A DNA stretch of 64,000 nucleotides from Persicimonas caeni (GTDB taxonomy: Bacteria > Myxococcota_A > Bradymonadia > Bradymonadales > Bradymonadaceae). Under the pieces are notes generated by a model, which was not told where the DNA came from, did not search any database, and saw only the letters and a list, made by a program, of their open reading frames with translations. The DNA is taken from the NCBI RefSeq assembly GCF_006517175.1, contig NZ_CP041186.1:5731074-5795073 (forward strand). The letters are read 5' to 3'. Positions within the stretch are counted from its first letter, which is position 1; every line of letters starts with the position of its first letter. Made by a program: the position numbers and the translations under genes. Shown here in pieces: positions 13,565 through 54,642 of the stretch.

Positions 13565-14749
13565 TCAGTAGAAGTGCGGCGCGGCCATCAGCACCATCAG
13601 GTTGGCGCCGGCGTGGTAGACCACTGAGGCGGCGATGGTGTCGGTGCGCTCGCGCAGCCACCCGAAGACCAGCGACGGAAAGAAGACCGCCGCGCGGGTG
13701 ATCATGATCGCGCCGCCCACCGGAATGAGCACGTGACCGATGGCGAACAACACGCTTGTGAGCGCGTTTGACGCAGAAATCCCCAACACCCGACGTCCGT
13801 CCTCACCTTCGCGTTCGCCGCCGCCGCGCGCCCGGCGTCTGGCGGCGAACGCCTCCGACAGCCTCGTCTGCAGATACCCGCGGTAGAAGAACTCTTCGGG
13901 CAACGCGATAAAGACGAGCTGGGTGAGCACCCACAACACAATCCAGGTGAGCCCGCGGTCGATCTCGACGGTCGAGCCCGCCTCGATCTCGGCGGCGCCC
14001 TGACGGATCACCACCGGCGCGTCGGACTCGGGGCGCCAGGCGTTGATGCGCAACGCGTCGGGCGTGCCGCCGCCGGTGGGCCGGCCAATGCGCACCTCGG
14101 TGCGCTTGTGGGGCTGGGCGAGCTCGATCGTCCACTCGCTGTGTTCGCCGGGGCCGGTCTTGCCCTCGGGGCCTCGCAGCGTGGCCGGGCCGATCACCCG
14201 CGGGCGAAACGCCTCATCGGCCCTGAGCGTCACCTCGACGGGCTCTTGGCCCGCACGCATGCCAATGTGCAGGGTCTGACCCGAGGCCCACGTCCACACG
14301 CCCGATTCATTACCCCATTGGTCCGGCCGCCCGTCGAGCTCGACCGGCCACTTGAAGAAGTTGTCGACCGAGAAGGCGTACTCGCGCTCCATGACCTTCG
14401 TCTCCCACCACCAGTAGCCGACCGCGAAGGGCCCGAGCGTGATGGCGGTGAAGACGAGTCCCCAGATCGCGCCGCGCCCGGCGCGCTCCCAGGTCAGCCC
14501 GAAACGCTCGAAGCTCCAGCCTTTGCGAGTGAGCCACCAGTAAGGCAGGCCCACGAAGACCGCGGCGACGAGCGCGTACAGGTTCTGGGCGACGATGGGG
14601 ACGGCAGAGGCGACGAGCACGCAGGCCAGCACCAAGAGCAGGGCGCCGACGTAGATCGCGCCGGACTCCTGGAGGATGGGCTTTGCCGCGGCCTGCTCGT
14701 CCTGCCTATCGGTCTGGTGGGGCTGCTTGTCGGTCGGCGAGTCACTCAA
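13565..14749 (-). CDS. CPBP-family intramembrane metalloprotease with extracytoplasmic insert
   Basis: 394 residues. Two transmembrane helices lie near 33-72, another near 93-115, followed by a beta-rich soluble insert of about 140 residues (120-262). The CPBP core then has EEFFYRG (E285/E286), the second-motif His339 in FAIGHVL and His379 in YHAGANL, the conserved metal-site residues. CPBP (Abi/Rce1-like) proteases process CAAX-type or bacteriocin-related substrates, and some relatives (myxosortases) process C-terminal sorting signals. The insert between the N-terminal helices and core is unusual. The start is TTG 14749, overlapping the upstream lipoprotein gene by 8 bp. Confidence 0.82.
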   Translation of the reverse strand: MSDSPTDKQPHQTDRQDEQAAAKPILQESGAIYVGALLLVLACVLVASAVPIVAQNLYALVAAVFVGLPYWWLTRKGWSFERFGLTWERAGRGAIWGLVFTAITLGPFAVGYWWWETKVMEREYAFSVDNFFKWPVELDGRPDQWGNESGVWTWASGQTLHIGMRAGQEPVEVTLRADEAFRPRVIGPATLRGPEGKTGPGEHSEWTIELAQPHKRTEVRIGRPTGGGTPDALRINAWRPESDAPVVIRQGAAEIEAGSTVEIDRGLTWIVLWVLTQLVFIALPEEFFYRGYLQTRLSEAFAARRRARGGGEREGEDGRRVLGISASNALTSVLFAIGHVLIPVGGAIMITRAAVFFPSLVFGWLRERTDTIAASVVYHAGANLMVLMAAPHFY

Positions 14750-43098: not shown

Positions 43099-43962
43099 AT
43101 GGCGAAGAAGAAATTGCTCATCGCGGCGGTCATCGTCGGCGCGTTCGCCGCGCTGCTGGTGTACCTGTACCACACGCAGCAAGAGAAGAAGGTCAAAAAC
43201 CTGATGAAGAATCAGGTCGAGGTCATCAAGGCTGCGCGTGACATCCCGGCGGGCACCCCGCTGACCGAAGACAAGGTGACCAGCGAGAAGGTCCCCCAGC
43301 GCTTCTTGCCGCCTAACCCGGTGCTCAAAGAAGACTTCGACATTTACGCCGGTCAGCCCGTCTCCTCTTCGATCGAAGAGGGCGCGATGATCTTGACCAG
43401 CGACTTCAACGTCAAAGAGGTCTCGAGCAACCTTTCGAGCAAGATCCCGCCCGGCGAGCGCGCCATGTCGATTCCGGTCGACAACATAAGCGGCGTGTCC
43501 GGATTGCTTCGCCCCGGTGATCGCGTCGACGTGCTCGGCACCTTCCCGGTCAGTAGCGAAGACCAGGTCATCCGCGAGGCCGGTGGCGGCCAGAGCGTCG
43601 GTTACGTGACGATGACGCTGCTGCAGAACGTCACCCTGCTGGCCGTCGGCCAGGAGATTTCGGGCGTCGCAGCCGGCAAGCAGCAAGGCGGCGGGCGTGC
43701 CCGCGGCGGCTACAGCACGGTCACCGCGTCGGTGACCATCGACGAGGCCGAGCTGTTGACCATCGCTCAGACCCGCGGCGAGCTGATGTTGCTGCTGCGT
43801 CACAACGAGGACGTCGAGATTGGCGGCGTCAAGCGCAAGACCCTCAAGCAGGTCCTTCAGGACCTCGAGGTGCTCAACCGCGAGCGCAAGAAGCGCGTGA
43901 AGACGCGCGTGCGCAAGAAGAAGGACGACACGATCAAGATTTATCGCGGCACGGATAAGTGA
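43099..43962 (+). CDS. cpaB: Flp pilus assembly protein CpaB
   Basis: 287 residues. One N-terminal transmembrane helix (about 5-24) is followed by a SAF domain with VIKAARDIPAGTPLTEDKV (about 42-60) and the RcpC/CpaB domain with ISGVSGLLRPGDRVDVLGTF near 135-155. It is a periplasmic protein that helps organise the secretin in Tad pili. A Lys-rich C-terminus is unusual. GGGAGG lies 8 bases before ATG 43099. First gene of the Tad operon, with a terminator-like hairpin after it. Confidence 0.92.
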   Translation: MAKKKLLIAAVIVGAFAALLVYLYHTQQEKKVKNLMKNQVEVIKAARDIPAGTPLTEDKVTSEKVPQRFLPPNPVLKEDFDIYAGQPVSSSIEEGAMILTSDFNVKEVSSNLSSKIPPGERAMSIPVDNISGVSGLLRPGDRVDVLGTFPVSSEDQVIREAGGGQSVGYVTMTLLQNVTLLAVGQEISGVAAGKQQGGGRARGGYSTVTASVTIDEAELLTIAQTRGELMLLLRHNEDVEIGGVKRKTLKQVLQDLEVLNRERKKRVKTRVRKKKDDTIKIYRGTDK

Positions 43963-44046: not shown

Positions 44047-44222
44047 CGTGGAAGCAGTTCAGCCGGACGAGAACTTGTCACAAGGTCACTTATCAGAAAG
44101 GGCTTCTTGGGGTAGAGTGTCTCCAAAATGCCCATTCATTTTGAATTGAGCCCGCGCCGAATGATTTACGCATCCCGCCGGTCCCAAAGGGTATGGAGCG
44201 GCAAGTCGTAATGAGGAGTAAG

Positions 44223-45662
44223 ATGAAGTTGTACAAGCGGTTGGGAGTACTCTTCCTTCTGATGTTGGCATCGACGGCGGTTACGGTGAGCATCTCGCCG
44301 ACGCCGGTGCATGCGCAGGCGCCAGATAAAGAATTTACCATTTCGGTGGGTGAGACCTTGACCTTCAGCGGGCGCGGCGTGCGCTCGGTGAGCATCGGTC
44401 TGCCCCAGATCGCCGACGCGCAGGTCGCCGACAACCGCCAGTTGATCGTCACCGGCAAGCAGCCGGGCACGACCACGATCAACATCTACGGCAGCAGCGG
44501 CCAGAAGACGCTTCTGATTCGCGTCGTCGGGACCAACCCGCAGTCGCTGGCCGAAGAGGTCCGCGAGGTGCTCGGGCCGGGCTCGGGCGTCGACGTGCGC
44601 GTGGTCAAGGGGCGCGTGCTCCTCGAAGGCGAGGTCGCCGGCGAGAAGTTCAAGCGCAAGATCGAGGCGCTGACCACCCTGTATCCCAACCAGGTGCTCA
44701 ACTTCACGACCTACCGCGAGGCCTTCGTCGAAGGCGCGCGCATGGTCGCCGTGGACATCTACTTTGTGCAGCTGGCCACGACCAACCGCGACCAACTCGG
44801 TGTGAAGTGGGGCCAATTCATCGGCGCCAACTACACCTTCGGTAGCGGCGACGTGCCGCTGTACTACGGCAACGAACTCGACGACGGCGTCACTCCCGGC
44901 AACACCGGGACGCTTCTGTCGAACCCGGCCGCGCTGACCGGTGGCGACGGCATGACCTCGTACTGGTCGCTGGTCGGCCAGGTCAACGTGGCGCTCGATT
45001 TCCTCGTGGAGAATGGTCTCATCAAAACGATCAGCCACGGCACGATCGTGACCGAGGCGGGCAAGACGGCCAGCTACCACAACGGTGGTACCTTGCTCAT
45101 CCGCATCGCCGGGCTGTCGGCCACCGCGCTTCGTGAAGTCCCCTACGGCCTCAAAGTCGAGATCAAGCCGGTCATCGACGCCAACGACAACGTCAAGCTC
45201 GAGGTCGTGCTCGACTACAGCGAGCTCGACTACGCCAACGCCGTCAACGAGGTGCCCGCGCTGCGCAACAACGCGGTGGAGAGTGTCGTCAACACGATGG
45301 CCGGTCAGTCGGTGCTCGTGTCGACCCAGGAAAACCTGAACAACACGTCGAACTCGACCGGTTGGTACATGCTGTCGCGCATTCCCATCTTGGGATGGCT
45401 CTTCAAGAGCCGCAACTACGTGGCGACCACGCTCGACAACGCACTGTTCATCACCCCGCGCGTCTACGAGCCGGGTGAGAAGACCCACGATGAGTACATC
45501 GACGGGGTCTTCAAGCAGTTGATCGAGTCGGGCGCCGAGCCCGAAGATCTGCCCGACCTCGACGACGTCGATAGCGGCGGTGGTTCGGCCCCGGCGAATA
45601 ATGCCACCGGCAACTCTCAGTCCGGCGGCGGCGCCAACGCCCAGCCGTCATTGCTCGAGTGA
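44223..45662 (+). CDS. cpaC: Tad secretin CpaC/RcpA
   Basis: 479 residues from ATG 44223 (GAGGAG site). Signal peptide ending HAQA. N-terminal domain (about 35-125) with GRGVRSVSIGLPQIADAQV and a BON-like segment, then the secretin core with LVENGLIKTISHGTIV near 270-290 and the C-terminal secretin signature VPALRNNAVESVVNTMAGQS (about 353-372) followed by IPILGWLF. Forms the outer-membrane pore for Flp pili. Confidence 0.93.
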   Translation: MKLYKRLGVLFLLMLASTAVTVSISPTPVHAQAPDKEFTISVGETLTFSGRGVRSVSIGLPQIADAQVADNRQLIVTGKQPGTTTINIYGSSGQKTLLIRVVGTNPQSLAEEVREVLGPGSGVDVRVVKGRVLLEGEVAGEKFKRKIEALTTLYPNQVLNFTTYREAFVEGARMVAVDIYFVQLATTNRDQLGVKWGQFIGANYTFGSGDVPLYYGNELDDGVTPGNTGTLLSNPAALTGGDGMTSYWSLVGQVNVALDFLVENGLIKTISHGTIVTEAGKTASYHNGGTLLIRIAGLSATALREVPYGLKVEIKPVIDANDNVKLEVVLDYSELDYANAVNEVPALRNNAVESVVNTMAGQSVLVSTQENLNNTSNSTGWYMLSRIPILGWLFKSRNYVATTLDNALFITPRVYEPGEKTHDEYIDGVFKQLIESGAEPEDLPDLDDVDSGGGSAPANNATGNSQSGGGANAQPSLLE

Positions 45663-45704: not shown

Positions 45705-47588
45705 ATGAAGCAAATACGCGTGCTGGACAACAAGGGGCAGGAGTATCTGTATCCTGTCGAACAACCGGTGGCCGAAGTCTCCATCGGGCGGAGCAAGAGC
45801 AACGACATCATCCTGAGCAGCAAGACGGTCAGCCGTCGACACGCCATCATCAAGATCATGGGCGACCGTATCTTGCTGGTGAATCAGTCGGCCAACGGTG
45901 TGGTCGTCAACGGCGAGCGCATCGACCGAGTTCAGGAGATGGAGCTCGGTCAATTCGCCACCATCGACATCTACCGCTTCTGCGTCGAAGAACAGGCGAG
46001 CGCGCGCCCCCCGTCGCGTACGCCTTCGCGCTCGAACGGTCGAAGCCAGCGGCGCGTCGAGCGATCCTCGCGTCTGGGCGGCGGTTCCGGGCGCACCAAC
46101 CGCTCTCGGGCGACCGAGGCGATGCCGGCGGCCAGTCGAAGTGGTGCGGCTGGCCAGATGACCGCCGAGCGCAGCCAACCTCGTGCTCGCGACAACGACT
46201 CGCCGTTGGGCGGTCACGCAGACCTCGACAGTTACCTGGGCGACATCGCCCCCGACGAAGACTACAAAGAGCCGCGCATCAACCTGGCCGGCGAAGAGGC
46301 GCAGGTCTTCGACCGTCAAAAGCGCCGTGCGCTCGTCGAGTTCAAGGCGATGCTGCACGACGAGCTCAAAGAGCGTCTCGACCTGCACAGCTTCGAGATC
46401 ACCGACTACCGCACGCCGCGTACGGTGCGCCAGGTGTCCGAGCGCCTCAAGCAGCTGCTCGAGATTCACGCCCACGAGATCCCGCCGCCGTTTACCCGCG
46501 ACGACGTCTTCAAAGAGTTGATGGACGAGGTGTGCGGTCTGGGGCCCATCGAGGACCTCATCAAGCACCGCAAGGTCAGCGAGATCATGGTCGTCGACCG
46601 CGACCATATCTACGCCGAACTCGACGGCAATATCGTGCTGACCGACCGCTTCTTCAACGACGAGAAGTCGATGATGACGGTCATCGAGCGTATCGTCATC
46701 CCGCGGGGCCGGCGCATCGACGAATCGAACCCGCTGGTCGACACCCGCCTGGCGGACGGCTCGCGTGTCAACGCGGTCATTCCGCCGCTGGCGCTCAAAG
46801 ACCCGTGCCTGACCATTCGTAAGTTCCCGGAGGACCGCCTCGGGGTGGGCGATCTGGTCAACTTCGAGAGTTTGACGCCCGAGATGGCCAAATTCTTGGG
46901 GCGCGCGGTGCGGGCGCGAAAGAATATCATCATCTCCGGTGGTACCGGCTCGGGTAAGACGACCTTGCTCAACGTGCTGTCGAGCTTCATCGGCCAGACC
47001 GAGCGCGTGGTGACCATCGAGGACGCCGCCGAATTGCAGCTCCAGCAGGATCACGTGGTCAGCTTGGAGACCAAGCCGCCCAACGTCGAGGGCAAAGGCG
47101 AAGTGTCGATTCGTGACCTGGTCAAAAACGCGCTGCGTATGCGTCCCGACCGTATCGTCGTCGGTGAGTGTCGTGGCGGCGAGGCGCTCGACATGCTCCA
47201 GGCGATGAACACCGGTCACGAAGGGTCGATGACCACGGTCCACAGCAACAGCCCCCGTGAGGCGATCGCGCGTCTGGAGACGCTGGTGTTGATGAGCGGC
47301 ATGGAACTTCCGACCCGCGCCATTCGCCAGCAGATCGCCAACTCGGTCGACGTCATCGTCCAGCAGTCGCGTTTTTCGGACGGCAGCCGGCGTGTGTCGT
47401 ACATCACCGAGGTCATCGGCATCAACGACGACGGCTACGTCGAGCTCGAAGACATCTACCGCTACAAGCAGACGCACGTCGACGAGAATAAGAAGGTCCA
47501 CGGCTACCACATGGCCACCGGCTATTTGCCAAGTTTCCTCAACCAGTTCCTGGTTCAGGGATTGGCCGACGAGGAAGACTTCTTCTAG
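45705..47588 (+). CDS. cpaF: Tad ATPase CpaF with N-terminal FHA domain
   Basis: 627 residues. Residues 1-92 form an FHA domain ([32 protein letters not shown]), a phospho-Thr binding module. A Ser/Arg-rich linker (95-165) leads to the type II/IV secretion ATPase: Walker [10 protein letters not shown] near 411-419, [24 protein letters not shown] and [13 protein letters not shown]. It powers Flp assembly at the inner membrane. Standard CpaF/TadA proteins lack FHA; the fusion suggests phosphorylation-dependent control or docking, perhaps with the second FHA protein at 49729. Confidence 0.94.
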
Positions 47589-47713
47589 TCGCGCGTAGTT
47601 GCGCCGATGGTAGGTCAAAGTTACACTGACGTTCGTTGCAAAGATTCTTCGAACGAAGAGACGCGCCGCCGACCGCTGAGGCGTCGCATTTTACTCAAGC
47701 AGGAGTCACCCAG

Positions 47714-48565
47714 GTGCTCTATCTCTGGCTTGCACTAGTCGCGGTGTTTGTCACCGGCATTCTCGCCGTGCTCGGCGGGGGTGAATGGGTGGCGGGCCGC
47801 ATCTCGCAGGAGCGAGGCGTCTACGAGCGCGTGGTCGGCAAAGAGCTGTACCGGCTCTTTTTGGACATTTCGCCGCAAGAATTCGTTCTCATCCACCTGT
47901 TCGTGATCTTGGCCGGCATCGGCCTGGGCGTCGTCTTTTTGGGCGGCATCATCGGCGGGCTCGCCGGCGGCGTGCTCGGCTTCGTGGCGCCGCGATTCTG
48001 GCTGAAGATGAAGTGGAACGAGCGCGTCAAAAAGATCAACGAGCAGGTCGAAGAGGCGATGGTCTACATGGCCAACGCCTTCAAGGCGAACCCCTCGCTG
48101 CCCGAGGCCATCGCCGACGTGACCAACTCGATGCCGCCCCCCATCAGCCAGGAACTTCAAGTTCTGTTGCGTGAGTACAAGCTGGGCACCCCGCTCGACC
48201 AGTGTCTGATTCGACTGCAGCAGCGCATGCCCGCGCGCAACCTCGAGCTGGCCATTTCGGCGCTGCTCGTGGGTCGTACCGTCGGTGGTAATATCCCTCA
48301 GATTCTCGACGACATCAGCTCGACGATTCGTGAGAGCTACCGTCTCGAGCGCGTCATCGACACCCAGACCGCCCAGGGCAAAATGCAGGCCTGGGTCATG
48401 GGAGCGATGCCGGCGGTGGTCATCGGCGTGTTCTACTTGATGGATCCGGAGTTGATCGAACCGCTGTTCAGCTCGTGGATCGGCTATATCGTCATCGCCA
48501 TCGCCGTCGTGCTCAACATCATCGGCGTGGCGCTGATTCTCAAGATCGTCAATATCCGGGTCTAA
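47714..48565 (+). CDS. tadB: Tad platform protein TadB
   Basis: 283 residues from GTG 47714 (AGGAG at 47701-47705). N-terminal helix, two central helices (near 65-100) and a C-terminal pair (near 230-280). The GspF/T2SSF domain is recognisable by EEAMVYMANAFKANPSLPEA and ALLVGRTVGGNI. Paired with the next gene it forms the inner-membrane platform on which CpaF acts. An in-frame TTG at 47636 is possible but has no clear site. Confidence 0.88.
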   Translation: MLYLWLALVAVFVTGILAVLGGGEWVAGRISQERGVYERVVGKELYRLFLDISPQEFVLIHLFVILAGIGLGVVFLGGIIGGLAGGVLGFVAPRFWLKMKWNERVKKINEQVEEAMVYMANAFKANPSLPEAIADVTNSMPPPISQELQVLLREYKLGTPLDQCLIRLQQRMPARNLELAISALLVGRTVGGNIPQILDDISSTIRESYRLERVIDTQTAQGKMQAWVMGAMPAVVIGVFYLMDPELIEPLFSSWIGYIVIAIAVVLNIIGVALILKIVNIRV

Positions 48566-48580
48566 CGGCAAGGAACGGTT

Positions 48581-49519
48581 GTGGAGCAACTTCTACACCC
48601 CACAATTCTGATCATCTCGGCCATCGTGCTGATGTTTGTGGCGTTTGCGCTGCTGACATTTGGCTTCGTGCCCGAGGAGGTCGAAGAAGACGAGATCTAC
48701 GGATACCGTCTGACCAAGCGAAAGCGTCTGTTGCAGGAGGATGGGCTCTACGCGCTGACGCTGCCGCTGATCAAGATCTTCGCTCACTACTTCCGGATGA
48801 TTCCGGAGAGTGACAACTTCATCGAGCGCATACGTAAGAAGCTGCGCGATCAGTTGCCTCGCTCGGGCTACATGGGCGCGTTCACCCCCAATGAATTCTT
48901 GGGCGCCTGCTGTACGACCGCGCTGGGGATCTTCTTTTCGATCATTCTGCTCACGACGTTGGCGTCGAACACGCCCAATATCCCGATCGCGTTGATCGTG
49001 GGCGCCGGCGGCCTGTATTTCCCGTTTCTGAACCTGCGTGGGGCGATCACCGAGCGTCTCATCGAGATCGACCGTCGCCTTCCGTACACCATCGACCTTC
49101 TGGTGTTGTCGATGCGCGCGGGCCTCGACTTCATGACGGCGCTCGACCGCGTCGTCACCCGCGGCCAGGAGCAAAACCCCGACGACCCGATGATCCAGGA
49201 ACTCGGCGTGGTCCTCCAGGAGATGCGCGTCGGTACGCCCAAGGCCGACGCGTTGCTCAACCTGTGTGAGCGTGTCGACTCCGACTACCTGAACTCGATG
49301 GTCGGCGCGATCATCCAGTCGGAGAAGCGCGGTAGCCCGCTGGCGCGCGTGCTCGAGATCCAGGTCGACACCATCCGAAACAAGCGCACCCAGAAGATCG
49401 AGAAGCAGGCCAGCCAGGCCGCCGTCAAGATTCTGATGCCGCTGATGTTCATCTTCGGGGCGGTCGTCGTCGTGGTCATGGGGGCGATGATTCTGAAGGT
49501 CAAGAACCAGGGAGGTTGA
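48581..49519 (+). CDS. tadC: Tad platform protein TadC
   Basis: 312 residues, GTG 48581 with AAGGA upstream. Transmembrane helices near 7-30, 105-150 and 285-310. The T2SSF domain has RLPYTIDLLVLSMRAGLDFM and the closing KRTQKIEKQASQAAVKILMP, typical of TadC. Lies 15 bp after tadB and acts with it. Confidence 0.9.
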   Translation: MEQLLHPTILIISAIVLMFVAFALLTFGFVPEEVEEDEIYGYRLTKRKRLLQEDGLYALTLPLIKIFAHYFRMIPESDNFIERIRKKLRDQLPRSGYMGAFTPNEFLGACCTTALGIFFSIILLTTLASNTPNIPIALIVGAGGLYFPFLNLRGAITERLIEIDRRLPYTIDLLVLSMRAGLDFMTALDRVVTRGQEQNPDDPMIQELGVVLQEMRVGTPKADALLNLCERVDSDYLNSMVGAIIQSEKRGSPLARVLEIQVDTIRNKRTQKIEKQASQAAVKILMPLMFIFGAVVVVVMGAMILKVKNQGG

Positions 49520-49728
49520 GCCACGGGGCTCGACCTTCGAGGGTCGCGTGACGATGTCTGTTTTCCCTCCTGACGCCCCAACGGGTTCACCCGGCACAAA
49601 GAGTTTTGTTTTCGCCAGCAGTGGCGTACAATGGCCCGCAGGCCGTGCCGGAGAGTATCTGCGGTTTGGTAAAGCCCGCCCCAGACAGCGGCGGGTCGAA
49701 CGAGCTCACTAGCGAGGACATGTCTGTC

Positions 49729-51075
49729 ATGCCTTCTTTTTGGCTAGAATACGACAACAACGGGGATATCCAGGAGTTTAGCTTCGACTCGGACTCGGTC
49801 AGCGTCGGCCGGGACAAGGGGTCTGATTTCGTCTTGGACCATCCAACGGTATCGCGCCAGCACGCCGTTATCGTGTTCAAGAACGGAAGCTACTACCTGG
49901 TGGTGCTCTCGCGTGGCGGGCTGACCGCGATCGACGGCCAGCAGCTCCAGGGCGAGCAGATGCTGTACGACGGCAACATGCTCCACCTGGGCCAGCTCCA
50001 ATTCCGCTTCCGCTCGAACCACGCCCCTCAGAAGCCCGCAAACCATGCGCAGCAGCAGGCCCCGCAAGCGGCCGGATTCGGCGCCCAGGGCGGCGGCAAC
50101 CAAAACCAATTTGGCGGCGGCAACCAAAATCAGTTCGGCGGCGGCAACCAGAACCAGAATCAGTTCGGTGGAGGCGGCAACCAGAACCAGAATCAGTTCG
50201 GTGGCGGCGGCTTCGGTCAGCAGTCTCAGTCTGGGTTCGGTGGGCAGAATGGTCAGGGCGGCGGTCAAGGCGGCCAAGGCCAGTACGCGAACGGGTTCGG
50301 CTTCGGCGATTCTCCGGCCGGTGGAACCGACGCCAACATGGGCGGCGCACAGCCTCAACCCAACGACGCCCAGGCCGACGGCGGCTCGGAGAGCGGCATC
50401 ATCAGTTGGGACGAAATCGCCAGCAGCTCCGAAGCGATGGAAGAGGCCGACCGGCCCAAGGAAGCGACGGTCTACGACCGGATGCAACAGGGCAAAAAGA
50501 AGAACGAGCAGACCAACCCGCTGCTCGTGGTCGTCGCCGGTGCCGCGATCGTCGGACTGCTGTGGTTTACTTTCTTCAACGACCCGGGCGGGGGCGGCGG
50601 CAAACAAAAAGACAAGGTGCCCGTCGAAGAGCAGCCTCCGGTGGTCATCGAAGTCAGCTGCATGGGGGAGTCGGCGTGCCTTCAGAAGGCAAAAGACGCC
50701 TACAGCGTGGGCATCGAGAAACTCGAGAAGAAAGACGCCGCCATCTCCAACCGGTTCGAGGGCTACAAAAAGCTGCTCGAGACCGAGAAGTACCTGGAGA
50801 AAGCCGGAAAAACCGAGCTTCCCAAAGAGATGGCCAAGCTCGAGCCGGCCAAAGCTTCCATCCGCAAAGAGTTGACCGACATTTGGCGTCAGCGTCGCCT
50901 GCAGTATCACAAGGCCAAGAAGCGCAGTCGCCACCGTGAGATGGCCCAGGCGCTCGACACCGTAAAAGCCTATTTTCCCGATCCGACGGCCCGCGAGAAT
51001 CGGTGGGCGGCCGGCGAAGAGCTATACATGAAGAAGAAGGGGATCTACCCCAAGCATGTTTATCCTCAACACTGA
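49729..51075 (+). CDS. FHA-domain membrane protein of the Tad locus
   Basis: 448 residues. FHA domain 1-95 (VSVGRDKGSDFVLDHPTVSR, QHAVIVF). A low-complexity region follows (about 110-210) with repeats of GGGNQNQF and Gly/Gln-rich tracts. An acidic segment, then one transmembrane helix near 265-283 (LLVVVAGAAIVGLLWFTFF) and a C-terminal domain of about 160 residues with a CMGESAC pair and a Lys-rich helical end. This places the FHA domain in the cytoplasm and the C-terminal domain outside. I chose ATG 49729, which has GCGAGGA ten bases upstream; ATG 49720 is too close. Probably a scaffold that meets the FHA domain of CpaF or a common phosphoprotein. Confidence 0.82.
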   Translation: MPSFWLEYDNNGDIQEFSFDSDSVSVGRDKGSDFVLDHPTVSRQHAVIVFKNGSYYLVVLSRGGLTAIDGQQLQGEQMLYDGNMLHLGQLQFRFRSNHAPQKPANHAQQQAPQAAGFGAQGGGNQNQFGGGNQNQFGGGNQNQNQFGGGGNQNQNQFGGGGFGQQSQSGFGGQNGQGGGQGGQGQYANGFGFGDSPAGGTDANMGGAQPQPNDAQADGGSESGIISWDEIASSSEAMEEADRPKEATVYDRMQQGKKKNEQTNPLLVVVAGAAIVGLLWFTFFNDPGGGGGKQKDKVPVEEQPPVVIEVSCMGESACLQKAKDAYSVGIEKLEKKDAAISNRFEGYKKLLETEKYLEKAGKTELPKEMAKLEPAKASIRKELTDIWRQRRLQYHKAKKRSRHREMAQALDTVKAYFPDPTARENRWAAGEELYMKKKGIYPKHVYPQH

Positions 51076-51118
51076 GGACGGCGATCGGGCACATGCCTCA
51101 TCCAACTTGAAGTTCCCC

Positions 51119-52495
51119 ATGATCAATCCGTTGTCACCGCGTTCATCTGGCGGGGCCTGCGTGCGCAGCCCCGTCATTTCACTTTTGTTGATCGCGACGC
51201 TCACCACGCTGTCATTGCTATCGGGGTGTGCTTCGGTCAAAGAGCGCGGAGATCGCGCCTTTAAAGCTCAGGAGTACAACCGCGCGCTCGACCACTACGA
51301 GCAGGAGATGGAGCAGGGCAGCCGCGACCCCGACTTGTACTTCAAAGCCGCCCAAGCGGCCGTGCGTGTGGGAGATTTCGCGCTCGCCGAGCGCTACTAC
51401 AGTCGCTCGCTTCGCTACGGTGGCGGTGAAGAGGTCAAGCGGTCGCTGGCGGAGTTCTACATTGCCACGAGCAACTACACCAAAGCGGTGCGCGTGCTCC
51501 AGCAGTTGCTGGAGACGACCGACAATCCCCAGTCCGTCTTCAACAACCTGGGCGCCGCCTTGATGTATGCAGGTGCGCCGCTCGACGCCGAGTCGTATCT
51601 GCTGGTCGCTCAGCAGATGAACCCGAAAGATCCGGTGCCCTACGTCAATTTGGGCGTGCTCTACGACAAGCACATGAACCAGCCCCGCCTGGCATTAGGG
51701 TTTTATCGCTGCTTTCTCGAGCTCGGCAAACAGGCCAGCAACGAGCGTAAGATCGAGGCGCGCAAACAGGCGATCGAGGTGCGCTATGGAAAAGAGGTGC
51801 CCGAGCGCTATCAGGTCGAGTGCGGTGCGCCGTACCAGCCGCCCGGACCTCCGTCCAAAGAGGAGCTTCGCCAGACGTTGCGTGCCGAACAGAACGCTCA
51901 GCAAGAGCAGGGCGGTCAGGAACGGCAGGGCGCTCAGCCAGAGCAGGGCGCTAAGCAAGAGCAGGGCGCTAAGCAAGAGCAGGGCGCCCATAAGGCGCCG
52001 ACGGCCCTGCAAGACGAGTCAGCGGGCCAAGAAGGGGCAGACACCGAACCGCCGCCGGTGATCTATCGGCAGGTCGACGAGCTGCCCGAGCAGTCGAAGG
52101 CCGCCGAAGGGGCCGACTCGAAGAAGCCGTCGACGGCCAAGACGCTGGCACTTGCCGAAACGGCGTTCAGCCAGCAGAATCATGCCCGAGTCGTACAGTA
52201 CCTCGAAGATGTGCCAGCTTCGGCGCTCGACGCCCGAGCCATGTCGCTTTACGGCCGCTCGCTCGCCGCGCTCGGCGAACACCAGCGCGCCCAGCGTTGG
52301 CTCGCCGCCGCGGTCGAGGAGAAGCCGAATGCGGAGAACGTGGAGGCGCTCCTTGGCGTCTGCAGGCAACTCGACGATGCCGCCAAGATCGGTGAATTGT
52401 GCGAGCGGTTCGAAGGCGACGAGGAGCTGGCTGACGTGCTCGAGGATTGCCCCAAGAGGAAGTTGCTCGAGCAACTGAAGCAGAAGAAGCAGTAG
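51119..52495 (+). CDS. TPR lipoprotein, TadD-like
   Basis: 458 residues from ATG 51119, which puts the lipobox (LSLLSGC) near residue 36; ATG 51056 is possible but would overlap the previous gene. Several TPR units lie at about 45-190 and 335-430 (VKERGDRAFKAQEYNRALDHY, VFNNLGAALMYAGAPLDAES, LYGRSLAALGEHQRAQRWL). The intervening part contains Gln/Glu repeats of QEQGAK type. TadD lipoproteins of this kind help secretin assembly. Confidence 0.82.
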   Translation: MINPLSPRSSGGACVRSPVISLLLIATLTTLSLLSGCASVKERGDRAFKAQEYNRALDHYEQEMEQGSRDPDLYFKAAQAAVRVGDFALAERYYSRSLRYGGGEEVKRSLAEFYIATSNYTKAVRVLQQLLETTDNPQSVFNNLGAALMYAGAPLDAESYLLVAQQMNPKDPVPYVNLGVLYDKHMNQPRLALGFYRCFLELGKQASNERKIEARKQAIEVRYGKEVPERYQVECGAPYQPPGPPSKEELRQTLRAEQNAQQEQGGQERQGAQPEQGAKQEQGAKQEQGAHKAPTALQDESAGQEGADTEPPPVIYRQVDELPEQSKAAEGADSKKPSTAKTLALAETAFSQQNHARVVQYLEDVPASALDARAMSLYGRSLAALGEHQRAQRWLAAAVEEKPNAENVEALLGVCRQLDDAAKIGELCERFEGDEELADVLEDCPKRKLLEQLKQKKQ

Positions 52496-52539: not shown

Positions 52540-53022
52540 ATGAGGCGACTGGGCCGCAGCTTGAAGCAGCAACGGGGAGCCACGGCGACCGAGACGATCA
52601 TTTTGGTCGTGCTGGTCGCGATGGTTGTCCTCGCATCCATCAAGGTGTTGCGCGACAACCTTGGCAACAAGGTCGACGAGGCCAACACGCACGTCTCGGC
52701 GGTGTCGATCGACCGCGAGGACCCCGACGAGAAGCGCCGCCGCCAGAAGGCCAAAGAGATGGCCCAAGAAGGCGGCGAGGCCGGTGCCGGTGGGTCATCT
52801 GAAGCCGGCGCAAAAGGTCAGGGTTCCGGCGGCTCGCAGGGCGGAGGCGCTGCCGTGGCCGGGCCGGATGACGAAGCCGGTGGCTCCGCGGTCGCCTCGG
52901 CCGACGGTCAGGCAGCTGCGCCCGAGGGCGGCTGTGGCGGCTTCAACCCCTTCATCATTCCGATCGCCCTGGGACTCATGGGGCTGTTGGGCTACGTCGT
53001 CATGAAGACCAAGAAGGGCTAG
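52540..53022 (+). CDS. Flp-like type IVb pilin with extra C-terminal membrane anchor
   Basis: 160 residues. A short basic leader ends at RG, followed by ATATETIILVVLV, so Glu occupies +5 after the likely prepilin cleavage, then a hydrophobic helix; this is the class III (Flp) pilin start. A Gly/Ala-rich linker (70-125) leads to GGCGGFNPF and a second hydrophobic helix (about 136-155) ending KTKKG. Ordinary Flp pilins lack this tail, which looks like a sorting/anchor signal (Cys, helix, basic end). GGGAGAG site before ATG 52540. Confidence 0.78.
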   Translation: MRRLGRSLKQQRGATATETIILVVLVAMVVLASIKVLRDNLGNKVDEANTHVSAVSIDREDPDEKRRRQKAKEMAQEGGEAGAGGSSEAGAKGQGSGGSQGGGAAVAGPDDEAGGSAVASADGQAAAPEGGCGGFNPFIIPIALGLMGLLGYVVMKTKKG

Positions 53023-53031
53023 CCGAGGTCT

Positions 53032-54642
53032 ATGGCGCATCACTCCTCCGACTCCACTTCCACCTCCAAGCCGCCGCGGCGTTATCTTCAATGGCCGCTC
53101 CCCCTGGCGGCCATCTGGTTGTTGGCGCCCGTCGTCGGCATTCTGATTCGGCTCAGCCTCGAGCCGGTCGGCCCACACGACTACTGGTGGCATCTGGCGA
53201 TGGGAAAGCTCATCGCGGCCACCGGCGGCATTCCGACCGAAAATCTGTTTCTCTACACACTCGAGGCCGACGCGGCGTTCTTCGATCAGCCTTGGCTCGG
53301 GCAGTGGGCGATGTATGCGCTCTACGAGGCGTTCGGACACGCCGGGCCGATCGTGTTGCGAAACGCACTAGCGGCGACTGCATGGGCCGGAATTGTCGGC
53401 GCGGCGCTGATGCGCTGTCGGGATCCGCGCGTCGTCGGGGGCCTGGCGCTCTTGACCGCGGTGGTCAGCGGGCCCGTCTTCGGAGTGCGCACACAGATGT
53501 TCGCCTTCGTCCCCTATGTGCTGCTCGTAGGCGTTTTGTTTGCCGTCGCGACCGAGCGCCTTCGCCGACCTTGGCTGCTCGTCCTCGTGCCGCTCACAGC
53601 CCTGTGGGCCAACCTTCACGGTACGTTCATGCTGGTGCCGGTGCTCGCCGGCCTCACCGGCGGATCGCTCGTGGTCGAACACTGGATCGAGGAGCGCACC
53701 TTCGATCCCGTGCAGATTGGCTGGTGGGGCGGCACGGTGTTGGCAGTGAGCCTGGCGGCGATGCTCAACCCACTCGGTCCCCACATCTTCGTGTATGTCT
53801 GGGAGCTTACCTTCGTCTCGCAGGTCTCTGAGACGGTCACCGAGTGGCAGCCCCCGAGCATCGACACGCCCATGGGCGTGGTCGTCTTGCTTACGCTGAC
53901 GGCGAGCTTGGTAGTGCTGGCGCTTCGCCGAAAGAAGGTGCGCCTTTTCGAGGCCGTTTTGTTCGCGGCCACCGCCTATTTGGCAGTCAGCGCGGTGCGT
54001 CAGATGTTTTGGTGGGGGGCCGTGATGCTGATGGTCGTGCCTCGTCATCTGAGCGCGTTGCTCTCGCTCGACCCGTGGTGGGAAGATCGCACGAGCCAGG
54101 CTCAGGGCGTCGCCCACGCGGTAGCAGCGGCGGTGCTCGTCGCGGCAGCTGTGGCAAGCCAGCCGGGGCTTTGGCTACACGATGTCGGCAGTGAGTTGCG
54201 CGCCGGGGTGGCGCGGCGTACCCCGCCGGCCCAGGGGCTCTTGAAGGTCGACAGCCCCACGCGCCTCGTCTCTCAGCTCGCCGAACGGGGCTATCCCGGG
54301 ACGATCTTTCACGACCAAGCCTCGGGTGGTTATTTGGGTTTCGCGTTGGGCATCGGTCCGACCGACGCGCGAACCAATCAGGTCGCCTTCGTCGACCAGC
54401 GCATGGAGCTGATTCCCGAGGCCGTGTGGGACGAGTACTTCCAGTTGTCGCGTGCGCAACAGGGGTGGCGGGAGGTGGTCGAGCGCTACGGGATCCGAAC
54501 GATGCTGTTGTCGCCGCGCGAGCAGTGGCGACTCGTCCAGGTCCTGCAGGGAGATCCGGCATGGACTTTGGTCGGCGTCGATGAGGCGCATCTTTTGTTC
54601 ATGCGAAGCGATCAGACAGACCATCTGACGCAGTGGCGCTGA
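53032..54642 (+). CDS. Multi-span membrane protein, GT-C-like (function unknown)
   Basis: 536 residues with about ten predicted transmembrane helices (starting near 25, 115, 150, 175, 205, 235, 275, 300, 325 and 370) and a C-terminal soluble domain of about 130 residues. The first loop carries PHDYWWHLAMGKLIAATGGI, a 'D-x-W-W-H' signature of GT-C-fold membrane glycosyltransferase-like proteins. It lies 10 bp after the pilin gene, so it may be co-transcribed and perhaps glycosylates the pilin; this is inference only. Confidence 0.68.
   Translation: MAHHSSDSTSTSKPPRRYLQWPLPLAAIWLLAPVVGILIRLSLEPVGPHDYWWHLAMGKLIAATGGIPTENLFLYTLEADAAFFDQPWLGQWAMYALYEAFGHAGPIVLRNALAATAWAGIVGAALMRCRDPRVVGGLALLTAVVSGPVFGVRTQMFAFVPYVLLVGVLFAVATERLRRPWLLVLVPLTALWANLHGTFMLVPVLAGLTGGSLVVEHWIEERTFDPVQIGWWGGTVLAVSLAAMLNPLGPHIFVYVWELTFVSQVSETVTEWQPPSIDTPMGVVVLLTLTASLVVLALRRKKVRLFEAVLFAATAYLAVSAVRQMFWWGAVMLMVVPRHLSALLSLDPWWEDRTSQAQGVAHAVAAAVLVAAAVASQPGLWLHDVGSELRAGVARRTPPAQGLLKVDSPTRLVSQLAERGYPGTIFHDQASGGYLGFALGIGPTDARTNQVAFVDQRMELIPEAVWDEYFQLSRAQQGWREVVERYGIRTMLLSPREQWRLVQVLQGDPAWTLVGVDEAHLLFMRSDQTDHLTQWR

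Follow-up and report, generated by a model that had tools for sequence, protein, structure and literature searches.

The closest described counterparts of the locus considered here are the Kil machinery of Myxococcus xanthus, for which one major pilin, adapters and several tips are reported (PMC12075869, in the sections available), and the closely related Kil-like Tad systems reported for Bradymonadales (PMC8460266, likewise in part). The Caulobacter Tad machine is treated in PMC13170226, as far as its accessible text goes. According to the available portions of these accounts, Flp pilins measure about 50-80 aa and both KilP (97 aa) and KilO (59 aa) are described as fully helical Flps (PMC12075869), and TadD is said to be missing from Kil (PMC8460266). 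A second described system with a bearing on the locus is the MYXO-CTERM sorting signal, which, in the excerpted account, requires an invariant Cys and an Arg-rich end (PMC11980579). An Flp with a C-terminal membrane helix did not turn up in the portions of the literature searched; C-terminal membrane helices are mentioned for S-layer-like proteins in the accessible part of a paper on archaeal T4P (PMC4858521).

The window, that is, the whole 64-kb stretch of DNA analysed here (G000:C1:5731074-5795073), comes from the 8.05-Mb single-contig genome of Persicimonas caeni. It holds the core of a Kil-like Tad system, with CpaB, a secretin, an FHA-fused ATPase and two platform proteins (Table 1), and in these components resembles the Bradymonadales locus as described in the available text of PMC8460266, but differs from Kil as portrayed there by a TPR protein with a lipobox-like motif and by a pilin with two helices. 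The pilin gene begins 44 bases past the TPR stop and is followed after 9 bases by the next gene, whose multi-helix product (53032-54642) had no match in Pfam or NCBIfam and was classed by structure comparison. The FHA protein at 49606-51075 (+) carries GGGNQNQFGGG-like repeats ahead of its membrane helix. Just outside the window (L057:2586-3761, about 65.5-66.7 kb in window coordinates), some 12.5 kb 3' of the pilin gene, is a gene for another CpaF-like ATPase, which shares about 42% identity with the first over 347 residues; several relatives have a comparable gene about 10 kb downstream, and in other Myxococcota one adjoins the Tad genes.

Table 1. Features of the Persicimonas caeni window (window coordinates) and the evidence on which each assignment rests.
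Feature	Position	Strand	Basis
Myxosortase MrtP (CPBP family), not assigned to the two-helix pilin	13565..14749	-	NF040674, 392 bits, cut-off 250
CpaB/RcpC	43099..43962	+	TIGR03177, 180 bits
Secretin (RcpA/CpaC/KilC-like)	44193..45662	+	Pfam Secretin, T2SS-T3SS_pil_N
CpaF/TadA-type ATPase with N-terminal FHA domain (KilF-like)	45705..47588	+	Pfam FHA, T2SSE
TadB-like platform protein	47636..48565	+	Pfam T2SSF
TadC-like platform protein	48581..49519	+	Pfam T2SSF
FHA-domain membrane protein, start uncertain	49606..51075	+	Pfam FHA
TPR protein, TadD-like, lipobox-like LLSGC, start uncertain	51056..52495	+	Pfam TPR; lipobox from sequence
Two-helix Flp-type protein, 160 aa	52540..53022	+	ORF, prepilin motif; Flp_Fap in Pfam, 21 bits (cut-off 32.2)
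Prepilin leader, residues 1-13, net charge +5, last residue Gly of predicted cleavage site	52540..52578	+	Sequence, charge; cleavage predicted
Pilin helix 1, predicted helix 16-57, Glu at +5	52579..52710	+	AlphaFold2; G13 and E18 in 16/16 sequences
Linker, residues 58-128: short helix 62-77, rest mostly disordered	52711..52923	+	pLDDT, pairwise identity
Tail, residues 129-160: GGCGG, helix 2 (139-159) with conserved Tyr152, KTKKG	52924..53019	+	Alignment, profile, AlphaFold2
GT-C-fold membrane glycosyltransferase-like protein	53032..54642	+	Foldseek: ArnT E 2.8e-6; STT3, AglB, AftA E<0.001

The N-terminus of the 160-aa ORF at 52540-53022 reads MRRLGRSLKQQRG^ATATE..., with the caret at the predicted cleavage site, such that Glu would occupy position +5 of the mature protein, as a first-pass annotation of this DNA had proposed in describing a prepilin-like N-terminus with a Gly cleavage site. 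The leader is followed by a hydrophobic helix and a long low-complexity stretch, which leads to GGCGG at residues 130-134, then to FNPFIIPIALGLMGLLGYVVM and finally to KTKKG. This C-terminal succession of GGCGG, hydrophobic helix and KTKKG was also correctly noted at first pass, but a Cys ahead of helix 2 occurs in just 4/18 of the two-helix pilins, GGC being a trait of the Persicimonas caeni gene and its sister in G008. AlphaFold2 predicted helices at residues 16-57, 62-77 and 139-159, with pLDDT <50 at residues 82-132, in a model of low confidence (mean pLDDT 62.5, pTM 0.26) that is uninformative on how the helices pack. The protein thus combines the Gly, the Glu at +5 and the hydrophobic helix 1 of Flp/Fap prepilins (PF04964) with a score of 21 bits that misses the cut-off of 32.2 for this family (seven of 16 members match at E<=0.01), and at 160 aa, with a second helix at 139-159, it falls outside the small one-helix format of about 50-80 aa.

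A pilin search followed by profile searches recovered the two-helix pilin from 18 of 21 Bradymonadales genomes, and in 16 of these 18 the gene lies directly 3' of the TPR gene, in the same slot of the Kil-like Tad locus. The remaining two are G020, where the contig ends at the position of the pilin, and G019, where no Tad gene was found near it. G003 and G012 (the latter 84% complete) yielded neither a TadC match at E<=1e-20 nor a two-helix pilin. In G015, the TadB, TadC, FHA, TPR and GT-C genes are kept, but there is no pilin and no room for one between the TPR and GT-C genes; since a Tad locus is present in this genome without it, the two-helix pilin is not indispensable. With its Tad genes kept, G015 (locus L119) would make a useful comparison strain. 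Dedicated glycosylation of the pilin by the GT-C neighbour was considered and rejected: the GT-C gene lies directly 3' in only 6/18 genomes (G000, G008, G006, G004, G005 and G001) and is retained in the pilin-less G015, and is therefore not tied to the two-helix pilin.

Among 16 aligned sequences, mean pairwise identity amounted to 42.7% in helix 1 and 42.4% in the tail as compared to 19.2% in the linker (residues 47-128). Counts of nonsynonymous/synonymous changes follow the same partition, with 0/9 in helix 1, 0/8 in the tail and 14.3/28.7 in the linker between the congeneric G016 and G018, and 0/14, 3.5/12.5 and 26.5/32.5, respectively, between G016 and G013. These substitution patterns indicate that 52540-53022 is a real gene under selection and that its tail is under purifying selection. 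The residues G13 and E18 are invariant (16/16 sequences), and all 18 two-helix pilins share a Tyr late in helix 2, with NP ahead of this helix in 14 of them. More variable are the linker, with a length of 53-117 residues across the 18 proteins, and the very C-terminus, where the last six residues are net negative in 6/18.

The first-pass remark that no other pilin lies in the locus holds for the window, in which the only other ORF picked up by the pilin scan (40507) was judged spurious, because it is antisense to a long ORF, and in which no TadE-type match and no prepilin peptidase were found. Further pilins are encoded elsewhere in the Persicimonas caeni genome. Near 3.948 Mb, an A24 prepilin peptidase is grouped with two small Flps, one adapter-like and one major-pilin-like; a further small Flp is found at 0.610 Mb, and TadE-type prepilin-like matches occur as three pairs near 2.81, 3.73 and 5.48 Mb (L149-L151; one of the six matches is above the Pfam cut-off). 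These three pairs recall Myxococcus, which has several tip clusters. Separate clusters for the major pilin, the adapter and the minor-pilin tips are a Kil-like trait, and from size, motif and place we tentatively assign the small Flps as KilP-like and KilK/KilO-like. With a major-pilin-like Flp, an adapter-like Flp, a peptidase and three tip pairs accounted for at other sites, the two-helix protein represents a third kind of Flp. It shares with KilP and KilK/KilO of Myxococcus xanthus the prepilin motif with Gly and Glu at +5, the hydrophobic helix 1 and the Tad/Kil context, but neither a second membrane helix nor a long disordered linker is mentioned for the Kil Flps in the available text of PMC12075869. 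By sequence comparison, its helix 1 resembles the major pilin and not the adapter: the helix-1 core is 30-52.5% identical (median 47.5%, 13 genomes) to the major-pilin-like Flp of the same genome as compared to 12.5-25% (6 genomes) to the adapter-like Flp.

Our preferred reading, to which we give a probability of roughly 45%, is that the protein is a paralogous Flp-type prepilin, akin to the major pilin, in which the C-terminal helix serves as a lasting inner-membrane anchor and not as a processing signal, and which acts at the base of the pilus. The leader would be cut by a type IV prepilin peptidase, and the mature protein would span the inner membrane as a hairpin, with both ends in the cytoplasm and a periplasmic leash between the helices. 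Since helix 1 is major-pilin-like and has kept the Glu at +5, it should fit the filament, into the base of which it may be lifted like a major-pilin subunit; helix 2, being conserved and not matched in its distribution by any of the processing enzymes looked for (see below), should stay in the inner membrane. A filament-compatible helix 1 joined to a membrane-held helix 2 suggests an anchor or brake at the base, where a leash of ~53-117 residues, at most roughly 20-40 nm when fully stretched, might allow the pilus to be held, or its extension to be stopped, during prey contact. The more specific proposal that this leashed pilin polymerises as the major pilin does, is unable to leave the inner membrane and by its insertion ties the pilus to the base and limits or ends extension is possible, but more doubtful. 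The topology, assembly together with the major pilin and the move from anatomy to an anchoring role are inferred, and the net-negative last six residues of 6/18 members weaken a simple positive-inside topology for helix 2. Also counting against an anchor are the absence of the pilin from the G015 locus and its place away from Tad genes in G019. If the reading is true, the leashed pilin would serve specifically to anchor or brake a type IV filament at its base, a role in pilus holding or extension stop to which the consulted portions of the literature assign no dedicated membrane-tethered subunit. A conserved pilin with a membrane leash of its own thus presents a concrete and testable candidate for base holding in predatory bacteria.

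The main rival to the anchor is an accessory membrane protein of two helices that remains outside the filament throughout, the helix 1 of which would mimic a pilin and engage the TadB/TadC platform to load, gate or sense the pilin supply. Such a role would suit a gene that sits with the platform and ATPase genes and not with other pilins, as well as the stronger divergence that an accessory might display, mean identity of the cores being 38.5% among two-helix proteins and 67.8% among major-pilin-like Flps. We nevertheless consider it less likely than the anchor, given that the cleavage motif and the Glu at +5 are kept in 16/16 sequences and would be needless in a protein that never assembles.

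A different view of the tail, put forward at first pass, was that a signal resembling those of MYXO-CTERM or sortase substrates had been added to a pilin and might retain or anchor the subunit. The conserved tail and the purifying selection on it speak for retention or anchoring as such, but not for the proposed sorting signal. In its overall make-up of a short motif, a membrane helix and a basic end, and in having a Cys and a myxosortase gene in the same window, the Persicimonas caeni protein does resemble MYXO-CTERM substrates as described in the accessible part of PMC11980579. It differs from them in that the Cys is restricted to 4/18 members, the C-terminus is acidic in 6/18 and otherwise ends in Lys/Gly without an Arg cluster, there is a single carrier per genome and the model is not matched. 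With TIGR03901, 50 matches above the cut-off and 77 at E<=10 were obtained in the Persicimonas caeni genome, none of them at the two-helix pilin, and none of 16 tails of this pilin matched at E<=10. Membership of the tail in MYXO-CTERM was rejected on the scarcity of the Cys and on this lack of matches despite MYXO-CTERM (TIGR03901) proteins in 21/21 Bradymonadales genomes. Looking for other proteins with the same C-terminus, as the first-pass annotation had advised, returned only the pilin itself, the tail profile giving exactly one strong match (E<=1.3e-5) in each of 18/21 genomes, with the next best at E 0.027; a signal serving multiple substrates was rejected on this ground, although one carrier per genome leaves room for dedicated one-substrate sorting systems. 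That the tail is a sorting signal of a known kind is accordingly not supported by the sequences, and in Myxococcota a tail of the Cys-helix-Lys type is not necessarily a MYXO-CTERM signal.

A private processing signal, by which a protease (a rhomboid, or a myxosortase acting without Cys) would remove helix 2 and leave a minor pilin with a long disordered tail, would agree with the tripartite look of the tail (GGxNP, helix, often a basic end) and with weak matches of 3/16 tails to the LPXTG anchor model (best E 6e-4). We regard it as improbable: besides the single carrier per genome and the acidic end in 6/18, sortase (PF04203) was found in 0/21 Bradymonadales genomes, exosortase (PF09721) exceeded the cut-off in just 3/21, among them Persicimonas caeni at 2.887 Mb and unlinked to the pilin, and no protease gene was seen in the shared part of the locus.

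The CPBP protease to which the first-pass annotation had pointed at 13565 as a possible match for the tail is real and proved to be the myxosortase MrtP. Its family core (Mrt_core) is above the cut-off in 19/21 Bradymonadales genomes, and in Persicimonas caeni MrtP is the only such core, but its occurrence is not matched to that of the pilin Cys. MrtP and pilin genes are ~39 kb apart in Persicimonas caeni and about 21-32 kb in G008, G011, G013 and G016, and far apart in G005. This vicinity and the GGCGG of Persicimonas caeni and G008 might suggest that, in this lineage only, a new GGC has opened the pilin to lipidation and to the myxosortase. Such an event seems very improbable, as the pilin is absent from the 77 TIGR03901 matches of its own genome, its tail ends in Gly/Lys and not in an Arg-rich stretch, and G011, G013 and G016 have the two genes as near to each other with a pilin devoid of the Cys. 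Hardly credible, finally, is that the two-helix protein, although the only pilin in the window, is itself the major pilin of this pilus after removal of its tail, as it is diverged and long and canonical small Flps, well conserved between genomes and in one case adjoining the A24 peptidase, are encoded elsewhere.

Beyond the family, a search of the phylum gave a match in 142/377 genomes, from which 11 loci (L088-L098, L090 being from Bradymonadales), L108 and further stretches were inspected. Two-helix Flps without a Cys ahead of helix 2 were also seen there, namely in G226, G192, G079 and G207, which belong to one other family, and in G086. They share with the Persicimonas caeni protein the Flp N-terminus, a low-complexity linker, a C-terminal helix and a short basic end, but their tail sequence is unlike its tail. 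Around these Flps in the G226 group (four loci), searches with the Tad genes of the window found no match. The two-helix Flps outside Bradymonadales may be independent in origin. In the Flp-type ORF of G086 (L108:6568, + strand), AQATGATPASKSDLR-like units are repeated in tandem within the linker.
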